Assembly (NCBI GenBank): GCA_903928965.1
Contig: CAIYSZ010000004.1
Span: 1 to 39,373, forward strand
Direction: 5' to 3'
DNA from: an uncultured Pseudomonadota bacterium
Lineage (GTDB): Bacteria; Pseudomonadota; Gammaproteobacteria; Methylococcales; Methylomonadaceae
DNA: 39,373 nucleotides
The position numbers were made by a program, and so were the translations under genes. Positions 17,639 through 20,513 of this stretch are shown here, one piece after another. Each line of letters opens with the position of its first letter. Positions within the stretch are counted from its first letter, which is position 1. The notes under the pieces are model-generated. The model was not told the origin of the DNA. It saw only the letters and a list, made by a program, of their open reading frames with translations, and did not search any database.

Positions 17639-18031
17639 TTAACTCTGCTCCCACGGCAAACCATGAAAGCGCCAGCCGTCGATAGTGCCGCGATGCTTAT
17701 CCGCGTCCAGCGCGCCTTCAAAGCCCTGCACAATGTTGACCAAATGCTGGTAGCCTACCGCCTCCAACGCCTTGGCCGCTTCCACCGAGCGCACGCCGCT
17801 ACGGCAGAGCAATAGTACCGGCGCGGTTTTATCCGGGGCATGTTGTTGCACCTGCTCGACAAATTGGCCGTTTAATTGCATGCCGGGAAATTCTTTCCAC
17901 GGCACGGAAATGGCTTTTGGCGGATGGCCGACAAAACTGTGTTCAATGCTAGTCCGTACATCGATGAAAACCGCTTTTGGGTTGTTTTGCAACAATTCCC
18001 AAGCGGCTTTAGGCTCCAGATTTTCAATCAT
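17639..18031 (-). CDS. Rhodanese-like sulfurtransferase
   Basis: This is a single-domain rhodanese of about 130 residues. Markers are VFIDVRTSIEHSFVGHPP at about 20-37 and the active loop LLLCRSGVRS with the persulfide Cys. I start at the ATG at 18031 (MIENLEPKAAW) because AGGAG lies a few bases upstream; the longer frame adds 18 residues with no ribosome site. Such proteins move sulfur from thiosulfate or persulfides to acceptors, but the true substrate is unknown. It is the last gene of a lysR-methyltransferase-rhodanese cluster on the minus strand. Confidence 0.9.
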   Translation of the reverse strand: MIENLEPKAAWELLQNNPKAVFIDVRTSIEHSFVGHPPKAISVPWKEFPGMQLNGQFVEQVQQHAPDKTAPVLLLCRSGVRSVEAAKALEAVGYQHLVNIVQGFEGALDADKHRGTIDGWRFHGLPWEQS

Positions 18032-18090
18032 TATGGGTTCTCCTGTGTTGAGGTTGAACGTGAGTTGATTATTCTCGGCCGGCAAACGAA

Positions 18091-18711
18091 TTAAATTAAC
18101 GGCTTTAGCGCCGCTAAACAGGCTTCGTTGCGGTTGGCGCGGCTTAAATCGCCGACGCGGCCGTACTCTTCAAAATATAGCACGGTTAGCGGCGCGAACA
18201 AGCGCAATAATTCATTCGTCTCCAGCAAATAATTCGGGTTGCCGGGTCCTGAAGGGTCAAGTTTGTCGCGGATAAAGGTTTGGTAAAACAGCAAACCGCC
18301 CGGTTTTAAGGCTTGCATGATGATGCCGCAGAGTGAACGCTCTAAATAGCGGCTAACGACGATAACGTCATAGCGCGCGGCCGGCCATGCCGTAGCGGTT
18401 GCATCACAAGCGCTGGCATTGACGCGGAGTCCGCGTTTGGCGGCTTCCGCACGCAGCCGCCCCACCGCTACCGCCGAAATATCCCAAGCCTCCGCCTCAA
18501 GTCCTTGCTGGGCCAACCATAAGGCGTTGGCCCCGTGGCCGCAGGCTAAATCCAAGGCCAGACCCTGGGCGGGCAGGAGAAACGCATGCCGGGACAATAC
18601 GTCGCAGACAGAGTCGAAATCCGCGCTTTCCCGTCCCAAATAGCAATTGTCCCATTTATCGCGCGCATCCGCCGTCACGGCGGGTCCATGCCGATGCGGT
18701 GCGGCAGCCAT
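18091..18711 (-). CDS. SAM-dependent methyltransferase, TehB-like
   Basis: This 206-residue class I methyltransferase has motif I LDLACGHGANALWLAQQG (about 54-71), an acidic second strand (EAWDISAVAV), motif IV YDVIVVSRYLERS, and ALKPGGLLFYQTF after it. The layout resembles TehB and other small-molecule methyltransferases. The substrate cannot be read from sequence; tellurite or thiol methylation are only possibilities. Its start overlaps the 3' end of the lysR gene by 37 bp, so the two are probably co-transcribed. A GTG a few codons downstream is a possible alternative start. Confidence 0.85.
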   Translation of the reverse strand: MAAAPHRHGPAVTADARDKWDNCYLGRESADFDSVCDVLSRHAFLLPAQGLALDLACGHGANALWLAQQGLEAEAWDISAVAVGRLRAEAAKRGLRVNASACDATATAWPAARYDVIVVSRYLERSLCGIIMQALKPGGLLFYQTFIRDKLDPSGPGNPNYLLETNELLRLFAPLTVLYFEEYGRVGDLSRANRNEACLAALKPLI

Positions 18712-19580
18712 TGCTGAATAAAATCCAGAAATGATCTAACCTTGGCCGACAAATACTTGCGGTGCGGGTACACCGCGTAAACTTCCAACGGGGAGATGCC
18801 GTATTGCTCCATGACCACTTTCAATCGGCCGGTCTCAATATCGCCGCCGACGATATATTTTGGCAGCATGATCAGCCCCAGGCCGTTGACGGCGGCGTTA
18901 CGGATGGGGTCGGCCATATTGGCTTGCATGCGTCCGGTGACGGTTATCGTGCGGTCGCCGAGTATGCCCTTGAATCGCCATTTGTTGCGCGGCGGTATCG
19001 CCCAATTGATTAAACAGCTGTGGTCTTCCAAGTCTTCCGGGTCCCTGGGTTCTCCGTGGAGCTTCAAATATTCCGGCGAAGCGCACACCACTAGCGACGA
19101 ATTGGCCAATTTGCGCGCCACCAGACTGGTGTCGTTCAATTGCCCCAGGTAAATCGCAATATCCACGCCTTCGTCGATCAAATCCACTTGGCCGCCTTTC
19201 AACACCATTTCCACCGACAAATCGGGAAAGGATTTCAAGTATTCGGTCAATCCGGGAGCGATGTGCGTGGCCCCAATCACCGGCGGCGCATGAATTTTCA
19301 ACACGCCTCGCGGTTCGGTTTGCAGCTTGGTTACTGCCGACTCCATTTCCTCCACATCCAGCAACACTTGCTGGCAACGCTCTAAATATTCCTCTCCGGC
19401 CTCGGTCAAGCTCAAGCTGCGGGTAGTGCGATTAAACAAACGCGTGTTCAATTCGCTTTCCAACTGCATGATATGCTTGGTCGCCATCGCTCGGGAAATG
19501 TCCAAGTCTTTCGCCGCCTTGGCGAAACTACCCGCCTTTGCCACGCGAACAAACACATTCATGCTGGTTAATTTATCCAT
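18675..19580 (-). CDS. LysR-family transcriptional regulator
   Basis: This 301-residue protein has an N-terminal winged helix-turn-helix (about 3-60, MNVFVRVAKAGSFAKAAKDL, and RLFNRTTRSLSLTEAG) and a periplasmic-binding-like effector domain (about 90-295). The ribosome site GGAGAG precedes the ATG at 19580. It resembles the large CrgA/AaeR-like branch, but the effector is unknown. It overlaps the methyltransferase gene downstream, so it may regulate its own operon. The gene-free 615 bp upstream hold its promoter on the minus strand and a likely small RNA on the plus strand. Confidence 0.92.
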   Translation of the reverse strand: MDKLTSMNVFVRVAKAGSFAKAAKDLDISRAMATKHIMQLESELNTRLFNRTTRSLSLTEAGEEYLERCQQVLLDVEEMESAVTKLQTEPRGVLKIHAPPVIGATHIAPGLTEYLKSFPDLSVEMVLKGGQVDLIDEGVDIAIYLGQLNDTSLVARKLANSSLVVCASPEYLKLHGEPRDPEDLEDHSCLINWAIPPRNKWRFKGILGDRTITVTGRMQANMADPIRNAAVNGLGLIMLPKYIVGGDIETGRLKVVMEQYGISPLEVYAVYPHRKYLSAKVRSFLDFIQQWLPHRIGMDPP

Positions 19581-19840
19581 CCAGCTCTCCTCTAACGCCT
19601 AATAAAGTGTGTGGGCCACGCCCTTTTTTCCGAATCACGCCTGCATGGACCAGCCTGAACTCATACTTTCCGTCCCGACTAAAGCTCAGGGTGTAAGTTA
19701 TTGTTGTATAAGCGTTAAAAACAGGAGGCATTCGTTTTTTTATATCAGTTTTCCGGCGCGTCCTAGATTAAAGCCTTGGCGCGCCTAGTTATTATTTTAA
19801 TTGTTTCTCGAATGTTTACAAATAATTTTTTTTAGCCTTA

Positions 19841-19868
19841 TTGTAAACTTTTTTTTCTGCTGTATAGT
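19841..19868 (+). promoter_or_regulatory. Sigma-70-type promoter of the putative small RNA
   Basis: TTGTAA (19841-19846), a 16-bp T-rich spacer and TATAGT (19863-19868) are a good match to the consensus. Transcription would start near 19875. No protein gene starts before hisE at 20196, and a terminator stands in between. Confidence 0.6.
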
Positions 19869-19874
19869 ACTCAC

Positions 19875-20142
19875 CAACGAAGCAACAATAGAATCTCTAT
19901 TTTGTCAATAGCAGATTTTCACGATAGCCCAACGTTAGCTTGAAACCGATTCAAGCATTACCGGCAAAACGCCATTTTTTGCTATTAGAGCCGATTAGTC
20001 AAACTTTCCTTGCGTTGGCGGCTCTTACTACATGAATTGTAACTACCTCCTGGTGTTGTAATATCGAGCGGAAACCTCCTCAATCACACTCCGCTTGTTT
20101 TCCAACCTCCGTCCGCATTAAGGCGAACGGAGGTTTTTTTTT
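19875..20142 (+). ncRNA. Putative structured small RNA with three CCUCC motifs
   Basis: The stretch lies between a good promoter (19841-19868) and a strong intrinsic terminator (20104-20142), giving an RNA of about 268 nt with no open frame of 60 codons. Hairpins I can see are GCTTGAA/TTCAAGC (19938-19956), AGAGCCG/CGGCTCT (19987-20025), CGAGCGGA/TCCGCTTG (20065-20097, one G-U pair) and the terminator. CCTCC occurs at 20046, 20075 (in the 17-nt loop of the third hairpin) and 20106 (in the terminator stem). CCUCC can pair with Shine-Dalgarno sequences, as in the CCUCC-loop 'cuckoo' RNAs of alphaproteobacteria. It does not resemble 6S, tmRNA, SRP or RNase P RNA. A long untranslated leader of hisE with an attenuator is the main alternative. 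Confidence 0.55.
20104..20142 (+). terminator. Strong intrinsic terminator
   Basis: AACCTCCGT pairs with ACGGAGGTT (9 bp), extended inside by CGC/GCG after one mismatch, with loop ATTAAG. A run of nine T follows. It works only in the plus direction. It stands 54 bp before hisE, so it ends whatever is transcribed from 19.87 kb. Confidence 0.85.
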
Positions 20143-20195
20143 GCCTGGCCGGCAATGTGGTATGATTTTTCACATATCAGCTTGAGCATCGTTGA

Positions 20196-20513
20196 ATGAG
20201 CGACGTATTACAACAATTAGCCGCGGTACTGGAGCAGCGCAAGACGCAATCCGCCGAACACTCCTATGTCGCCAGCCTTTACGCCAAAGGCCTGGATCAC
20301 ATACTTAAAAAAGTCGGCGAGGAAGCGGCGGAAACCATTATCGCCGCCAAGGACGGCGATAAGTCAAAAATTGTCTATGAAACGGCCGACTTGTGGTTTC
20401 ATAGCCTAGTTATGCTGGCGGCGCTGGATTTAGGTCCCGATCAGGTATTGGAAGAATTGGGCCGCCGCTTCGGCTTATCCGGGTTGCAAGAAAAAGAGCA
20501 ACGTCCATCCTAG
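20196..20513 (+). CDS. hisE: Phosphoribosyl-ATP pyrophosphohydrolase HisE
   Basis: This 105-residue MazG-fold enzyme removes pyrophosphate from phosphoribosyl-ATP, the second step of histidine synthesis. The motif [19 protein letters not shown] holds the Mg-binding acidic residues, and [14 protein letters not shown] completes the site. It is separate from hisI (3500-3889) and heads the hisE-tatABC cluster, an order also known in Pseudomonas, where hisI-hisE precede tatA. TATGAT at 20161-20166, after the terminator, may be its own -10. Confidence 0.96.

Follow-up and report, generated by a model that had tools for sequence, protein, structure and literature searches.

The window, by which we mean the whole stretch of 39,373 nucleotides that was analysed, belongs to a genome of the genus Methylomonas, in the methanotroph family Methylomonadaceae. 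Its minus strand carries genes for a LysR-type regulator (18675..19580), a SAM-dependent methyltransferase (18091..18711), and a rhodanese-like protein (17639..18085), and this operon has the same content as the watR-smtM-rstM operon published for Methylomonas sp. DH-1 (PMC6767647). By operon content and position, the regulator gene is the watR ortholog, and the other two genes occupy the smtM and rstM positions. On the plus strand lies hisE (PRA-PH, 20196..20513), and 615 nt separate the start of the lysR gene from that of hisE. The initial annotation described this gap as free of reading frames and placed a candidate small RNA in it; the size of the gap is right, but ORFs of 31-36 aa do exist there, none of them like the small protein that relatives encode at this place.

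The predicted RNA gene is divergent from watR. Its promoter, TTGTAA-N16-TATAGT (19841..19868, plus strand), was confirmed as annotated, with TTGTAA at 19841-19846, inside ATTGTAAAC, a spacer of 16, and TATAGT at 19863-19868, and the pattern is conserved in the family; five promoter-like sites were counted within 19300-20400, against 1.3 expected. With a start placed from the -10 box, the RNA would run from 19875 to 20142 on the plus strand (about 267-268 nt) and would consist of a non-conserved 5' part (19875..20029) and a conserved 3' element of ~113 nt (20030..20142). The parts of this element, all on the plus strand, are hairpin 1 (20036..20062; loop UCCU at 20048-20051), whose sequence is near-invariant within the genus, hairpin 2 (20065..20097; 17-nt loop, AACCUCCUCAAUCACAC), whose stem shows compensatory changes across the family, and an intrinsic terminator (20104..20142) that ends, as first noticed, in nine T (20134-20142). 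The terminator is absent from a simple terminator scan because of an internal mismatch in its stem and is visible in the folds. Three CCTCC motifs had been pointed out, and all are present (20046-20050, 20075-20079, and 20106-20110); the third, however, forms the 5' side of the stem of the terminator, where it is paired with GGAGG, and therefore only two are exposed. Folding of the 268-nt RNA gives -73.7 kcal/mol (z -4.48), a value that 0 of 200 shuffles matched, and when the bases of 19841-20142 were shuffled 5000 times, at least three CCTCC motifs were found in 0.56% of the shuffles.

When 19841-20142 was compared by BLAST, matches were obtained in 22 of 24 same-genus genomes and in 0 of 16 other-family genomes; the two same-genus genomes with no match have a completeness of 83% and 77%. 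The order lysR, RNA, hisE, tat genes is kept in all 23 same-genus loci found in this way. Their alignment contains two conserved blocks: one is the promoter region (ATTGTAAAC ... TATAGT), and the other comprises the final ~113 nt, within which TACCTCCTGGTGTTGTAA is present in 23/23 loci. The 5' ~155 nt are not conserved, except in a single genome (G021), where this holds for the first ~35 nt only, and the hairpins first proposed fare accordingly: those of the last ~113 nt are conserved, but the first predicted ones sit in the variable 5' part. An exact scan for the 18-base motif yielded 32 stretches, of which 15 are from Methylomonas, one from Methylococcales, five from uncultured proteobacteria, and 11 are chance matches in unrelated genomes that resemble coding sequence; the invariance of the motif is by construction in the five sequences fetched with it and holds in 23/23 sequences fetched without it.

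Covariance models of the 3' element, R1 and R2, were used at larger evolutionary distances, and it should be mentioned that E-values of such RNA models are rough. At E 0.05, R1 matches 121 of 151 Methylomonadaceae genomes and 27 of 29 genera, and at E 1e-4 it still matches 109 genomes and 26 genera; several genomes have two or three matches. An order-wide model search gave matches in 152 of 251 genomes, every one of them in Methylomonadaceae; of the 99 genomes with no match, the listing covers 20. In 369 genomes of the class, R2 gave seven matches: two in the family with E below 1e-15 (the window's own genome and one other, the only family members among the genomes listed) and five outside it with E from 3e-4 to 7e-3, where chance alone would give about 3.7 at an E of 0.01 for each genome. 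Three of these five look like little more than terminators, and the other two, L152 and L153, are CCUCC-rich with a different layout. Spread beyond Methylomonadaceae is therefore rejected, as the outside matches are near the chance number and none has the same layout. L152, from another gammaproteobacterial family, has a hairpin GUUGAAACC-(loop CCCCCUCCUCCUCAA)-GGUUUUAAC with a terminator and with ATTGTAAC upstream, and looks like an unrelated CCUCC-loop RNA.

At the Rfam 15 gathering score, the window contains only a tRNA and the loci of 20 relatives contain nothing; the best sub-threshold match, NsiR1 (24 bits against a gathering score of 39), falls on the terminator. A known Rfam class is thus rejected for the window RNA, as the initial annotation had supposed. 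The checks that it proposed, an Rfam search, an alignment of the lysR-hisE gap, and a test for covariation, have in this way led to no Rfam class, a conserved element, and covarying stems.

Forty further loci were fetched, and 64 loci were used in all, that is, 65 model matches minus L137, a duplicate of L038. They were hand-picked from the match lists for genus spread, so that they are not a random sample, and were divided by eye into 53 of type A and 11 of type B or other kinds (including L122 and L140). Within the flanks fetched, which extend for about 1.2-1.5 kb, the same LysR gene lies divergent to the RNA in 44 of the 53 type-A loci and in none of the other 11, whereas hisE adjoins the RNA in only six loci of the 64, all of them from Methylomonas. 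Because hisE starts 53 nt past the T-run in the window, the RNA could be thought a leader or attenuator of hisE; we reject this idea as very improbable, since hisE is not the conserved neighbour and lies outside the conserved unit. The conserved neighbour is watR, which had not been foreseen.

When 52 type-A elements were aligned by fitting them to the model, double changes were seen in 21 of 27 pairs, a number as high being reached in 0 of 500 shuffles, and the terminator is the best-paired helix. Since an alignment of this kind is biased towards the model, the distinct type-A elements from outside Methylomonas, 46 in number, were also aligned on sequence only, 41 of them being used and the divergent L118, L119, L126, L127, and L131 left out. 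From this second alignment, RNAalifold recovered hairpin 2 and the terminator de novo, with double changes in nine of their 14 pairs, but did not recover hairpin 1. Support for hairpin 1 comes mainly from sequence conservation and the model-fitted alignment, and the ORF-less copies L131, L144, and L145 deviate in it. In the hairpin-2 region, CTCCTC is kept in 47 of the 53 type-A loci, though the stem covaries. Among 49 folded type-A transcripts, the two CCUCC motifs, where present, have mean unpaired probabilities of 0.84 and 0.77, against 0.45 overall, and the hairpin-2 motif is mostly paired (below 0.3 unpaired) in six of the 47 transcripts that have it. Loop 2 varies even within the genus (CCUCCUCAU vs CCUCCUUCU), and therefore pairing, if real, may be rather generic and not directed at one specific target. 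The computations show a conserved promoter-hairpin-hairpin-terminator unit in which the CCUCC loops are predicted to be exposed, and it is plausible that these loops pair with Shine-Dalgarno sequences. The first interpretation is partly supported, namely as regards a structured RNA of no Rfam class with exposed CCUCC loops, which is moreover conserved.

The sequence recognised by WatR is ATTGTT-N11-AACAA, and watS1-watS5 as well as the WatABO pump are under WatR control (PMC10355033). The watS products are proteins of ~50 aa, four of them homologous and each with one membrane helix, and the main text of that paper handles the WatS transcripts as protein genes and leaves an RNA half undescribed: there, 'sRNA' and 'untranslated' each occur 0 times and 'small RNA' appears in two reference titles alone (PMC10355033). 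On both strands of the window, ATTGTT-N11-[AT]ACAA has a single match, and this predicted WatR box, ATTGTT-N11-TACAA (19800..19821, plus strand), with one mismatch to the published sequence, lies upstream of the RNA promoter. Strict WatR boxes are found in seven of the 53 type-A loci (0.025 expected) and relaxed ones in 13 (0.1 expected), vs 0 of 11 type-B loci in both cases, and other loci carry variants. A rough consensus of the promoter region across the loci is ATT.TTTCT.AA...GAAACAAT ... ATTGT(AAAC/ATCC)-N14-TATAGT. The second part of this pattern is matched at 13/15 or better in 43 of 64 loci, against 0.3 in shuffles; at a cut-off of 11 it is matched in 60 of 64 against 22 in shuffles, so that the latter count says little. 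Control of the RNA by WatR is likely. The WatR orthologs of 22 other Methylomonas loci are 86-95% identical to that of the window, vs 76-83% for hisE and 54-71% for tatA. A lactate-tolerant evolved strain of DH-1 has a 2-bp TT deletion between watR and an opposite operon (PMC6767647), and the site of this deletion is probably the bidirectional promoter of watR and the RNA; were the shared box the place of the deletion, the transcript linked to watR would have escaped notice.

In the majority of the relatives read, an mRNA for a small protein has the element as its 3' part, another feature that the initial annotation did not anticipate. An ORF of ~50 aa with one hydrophobic (membrane) helix (e.g., MNEFKKDVLVGTLFIAGILNFLSGLFVISTVLFAATSMFSN...) lies directly upstream of the element in 36 of the 53 type-A loci. 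The products of two relatives' ORFs have no Pfam or NCBIfam match above the cut-off. All of 12 chosen family genomes have 2-8 copies of the small ORF, and in the class the protein was found in two of 274 genomes, both Methylomonadaceae. Judging from size, helix, copies, and promoter, this ORF would be of the WatS kind: like the watS genes, it occurs as homologous copies per genome, each encoding ~50 aa with one hydrophobic helix, and has a predicted WatR box at the promoter, the window's box being one base off the consensus. The window copy differs from the watS genes in having no such membrane-helix ORF.

The remaining 17 of the 53 type-A loci, the window included, are without the small ORF, and they span ten genera; in a set of 28 loci, the ORF is absent or broken in five (L001, which is the window, L003, L004, L023, and L042). 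In the window, the 155 nt at the ORF site have no likeness to the small ORF by alignment or profile, and ORF tails are left in L083, L133, and, by eye, L081. The promoter pattern is kept at 12/15 or better in 15 of the 17 ORF-less copies, and in five copies (L086, L087, L125, L144, and L145) the promoter stands directly before the element, with a predicted transcript of only 136-143 nt. Because the ORF is lost while the promoter is kept and some copies have shrunk, the 3' element seems to outlive the ORF. The genome of the window has four related small ORFs on other contigs and none at the RNA locus, and therefore the function of the protein may be covered there. That the protein part is gone and the RNA is kept in the window hints at a function of the RNA itself.

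One might argue that the element is a mere 3' UTR, which ends and stabilises the messenger of the small protein and has no target, and that the ORF-less copies are decaying remains. The ORF directly upstream in most type-A loci, the terminator as the best-paired helix, and two of the 17 ORF-less copies (L131 and L146) that have no recognisable promoter pattern speak for such a view. We regard it as unlikely, however, given the promoters retained by the other 15 and the five copies reduced to promoter and element; moreover, small-protein genes need not carry the element, as 15 of 31 small-ORF loci have no CCTCC, CTCCT, or CCTCTC ahead of their terminator according to a crude scan, whose motif counts are slightly low (e.g., L176).

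Further forms of RNA were also seen. In the window genome, L163 (contig C5:8073-8155, minus strand), a weak model match of 27 bits and E 0.05, lies ~570 nt downstream of the WatS-like ORF L158 and has a ATTGTAAAT...TATAGT promoter, a ACCUCUCG loop, an AAGCAG/CTGCTT hairpin, and a terminator; it is probably a diverged sibling RNA. At L183/L160 (contig C99 of the same genome) and at L189, AACAG-(loop with CCCTCCTCTGG)-CTGTT with a terminator stands behind a WatS-like ORF, a CCUCC-loop form that R2 does not report. The type-B loci L115, L124, L134, L136, L138, L141, L147, and L148 contain a paralogous RNA that has only one loop, which reads ACCUCCUCGUA or nearly so, and a similar promoter pattern; they have no small ORF, and no lysR in the fetched flanks.

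The reading that we prefer, and hold to be rather probable, is that the window RNA is an sRNA-type member of a new RNA family, which is controlled by WatR and whose loops pair with Shine-Dalgarno sequences. According to this reading, the divergently encoded LysR regulator WatR would control the promoter, from which a short transcript would be made; in most relatives read, this transcript would encode the one-helix membrane protein of the WatS kind, followed by the conserved element, and in the window genome, where the protein part has been lost, the promoter would drive the RNA alone (~267 nt). Two hairpins of the 3' element would expose (A)CCUCCU ahead of a strong terminator, and the exposed loops may pair with Shine-Dalgarno sequences and lower the translation of certain mRNAs as weak acids accumulate, with the WatS-type proteins, encoded elsewhere in the window genome, acting on efflux.

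Pairing could also take place in cis, the loops binding the Shine-Dalgarno sequence of their own small ORF or that of the divergent watR, which would amount to autoregulation. Purine-rich stretches are seen by eye before several small ORFs and before the watR of the window. This alternative nevertheless seems improbable to us, because the loops are predicted to be exposed in most full transcripts and are retained in ORF-less copies, and because some watR genes (L013-L015 and L019) have, by eye, no GGAGG-like sequence before their start.

Action in trans, as in our preferred reading, was followed by two pattern searches. Among 16 Methylomonas genomes, that of the window being one, the pattern ACCAGGAGGT-N2-11-ATG occurs at six places and its reversed control at two, and one of the six is the antisense strand of the RNA gene itself; in nine other-family genomes it occurs at eight places vs three for the control, so that there is no enrichment where the RNA occurs. 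The count for TATGAGGAG-N2-12-ATG in 20 family genomes, 54 places vs 19 for the reversed control, has to be read knowing that a Shine-Dalgarno pattern is expected to exceed its reversal, and among the 30 of these 54 places that were read, only same-genus pairs recur. A conserved specific mRNA target was found in neither search. This result would fit an RNA that damps initiation broadly, either as a mimic of the 16S rRNA end with the anti-Shine-Dalgarno sequence or by titrating a protein. The sequence ACCUCCU is the core of the 16S rRNA 3' end, and it is present in the first 35 nt of 33 of the 53 type-A elements. Against this, sequestering many mRNAs would presumably need a high copy number, and we give such a broad action little credence.

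More tentatively, the locus may be a dual-output stress module of one methanotroph family, in which WatR switches on a pump-tuning small membrane protein and an anti-Shine-Dalgarno RNA together and the RNA half is kept where the protein half is lost; part of the WatR response, such as WatR-dependent repression without WatR binding, could then run through an overlooked RNA. We consider this possible, yet somewhat doubtful. The T-run of the RNA lies less than 500 nt from the watR start in 21 of 23 Methylomonas loci, and therefore the RNA gene was probably present as well in the published cassettes that include 500 bp of sequence upstream of watR (PMC6767647). One of them, with the watR upstream region, smtM, and rstM, gave no lactate tolerance (PMC6767647); the probable presence of the RNA gene in it counts against a role of the RNA in lactate tolerance. 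Among the matches listed in open-access PubMed Central (titles and abstract starts), there was no paper on the window RNA and none on a native regulatory sRNA of gammaproteobacterial methanotrophs. The element would thus provide these organisms with a family-wide RNA tied to a weak-acid-tolerance regulator that is used in strain engineering, and the loss of the protein half in ten genera is a natural experiment that could help to separate the function of the small protein from that of the RNA. The nearness of the RNA gene to watR also suggests that the published watR constructs and ChIP data merit re-reading.

Several known systems resemble the locus in part. In GcvA-GcvB and OxyR-OxyS, a LysR-type gene is divergent from an sRNA gene, as it is here; the difference is that the window RNA has no Rfam match at the gathering score. 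SgrS/SgrT is a dual-function RNA, a single transcript that encodes a small stress protein and also contains an RNA element; most relatives read share this arrangement, whereas the window copy has no ORF, and the Rfam model of SgrS gives the window RNA a score of 10.2 against a gathering score of 37. By prediction, the window RNA also has the intrinsic terminator with a U-tail and the exposed seed of an Hfq-type sRNA. The loops of the CcsR RNAs contain a CCUCC-type motif, and these RNAs are controlled by an alternative sigma factor. CcsR1-4 of Rhodobacter sphaeroides come from the 3' UTR of the ccaF1 mRNA, are induced by stress, and are linked to C1 metabolism (PMC8625941). The RNAs SmelA075 and SmelA099 of Rhizobiales have hairpins with anti-Shine-Dalgarno loops, three and four of them with CCUCCUCCC (PMC3927594); the name 'cuckoo', under which such alphaproteobacterial RNAs were first brought into the discussion of this locus, is not used in that paper. 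Likenesses to CcsR are the position behind a small ORF (here in most relatives), the CCUCC-type loops, the link to C1 metabolism, and, presumably, the induction by stress; hairpins with anti-Shine-Dalgarno loops and variable stems are shared with SmelA075/SmelA099. Kinship with these RNAs is not supported, however: CCUCCUCCC and CCTCCTCCC were each found in 0 of 64 elements, DUF1127 was not found in the ORF products of two relatives (Pfam, E 1), and the window has no such ORF. The elements moreover belong to another bacterial class, are likely under LysR-type control, and expose two CCUCCU motifs in different surroundings. We therefore reject membership in the CcsR/SmelA075 group, with which the elements share CCUCC predicted to be exposed in hairpin loops, and regard them as a new RNA family that may, by analogy, work like those RNAs.
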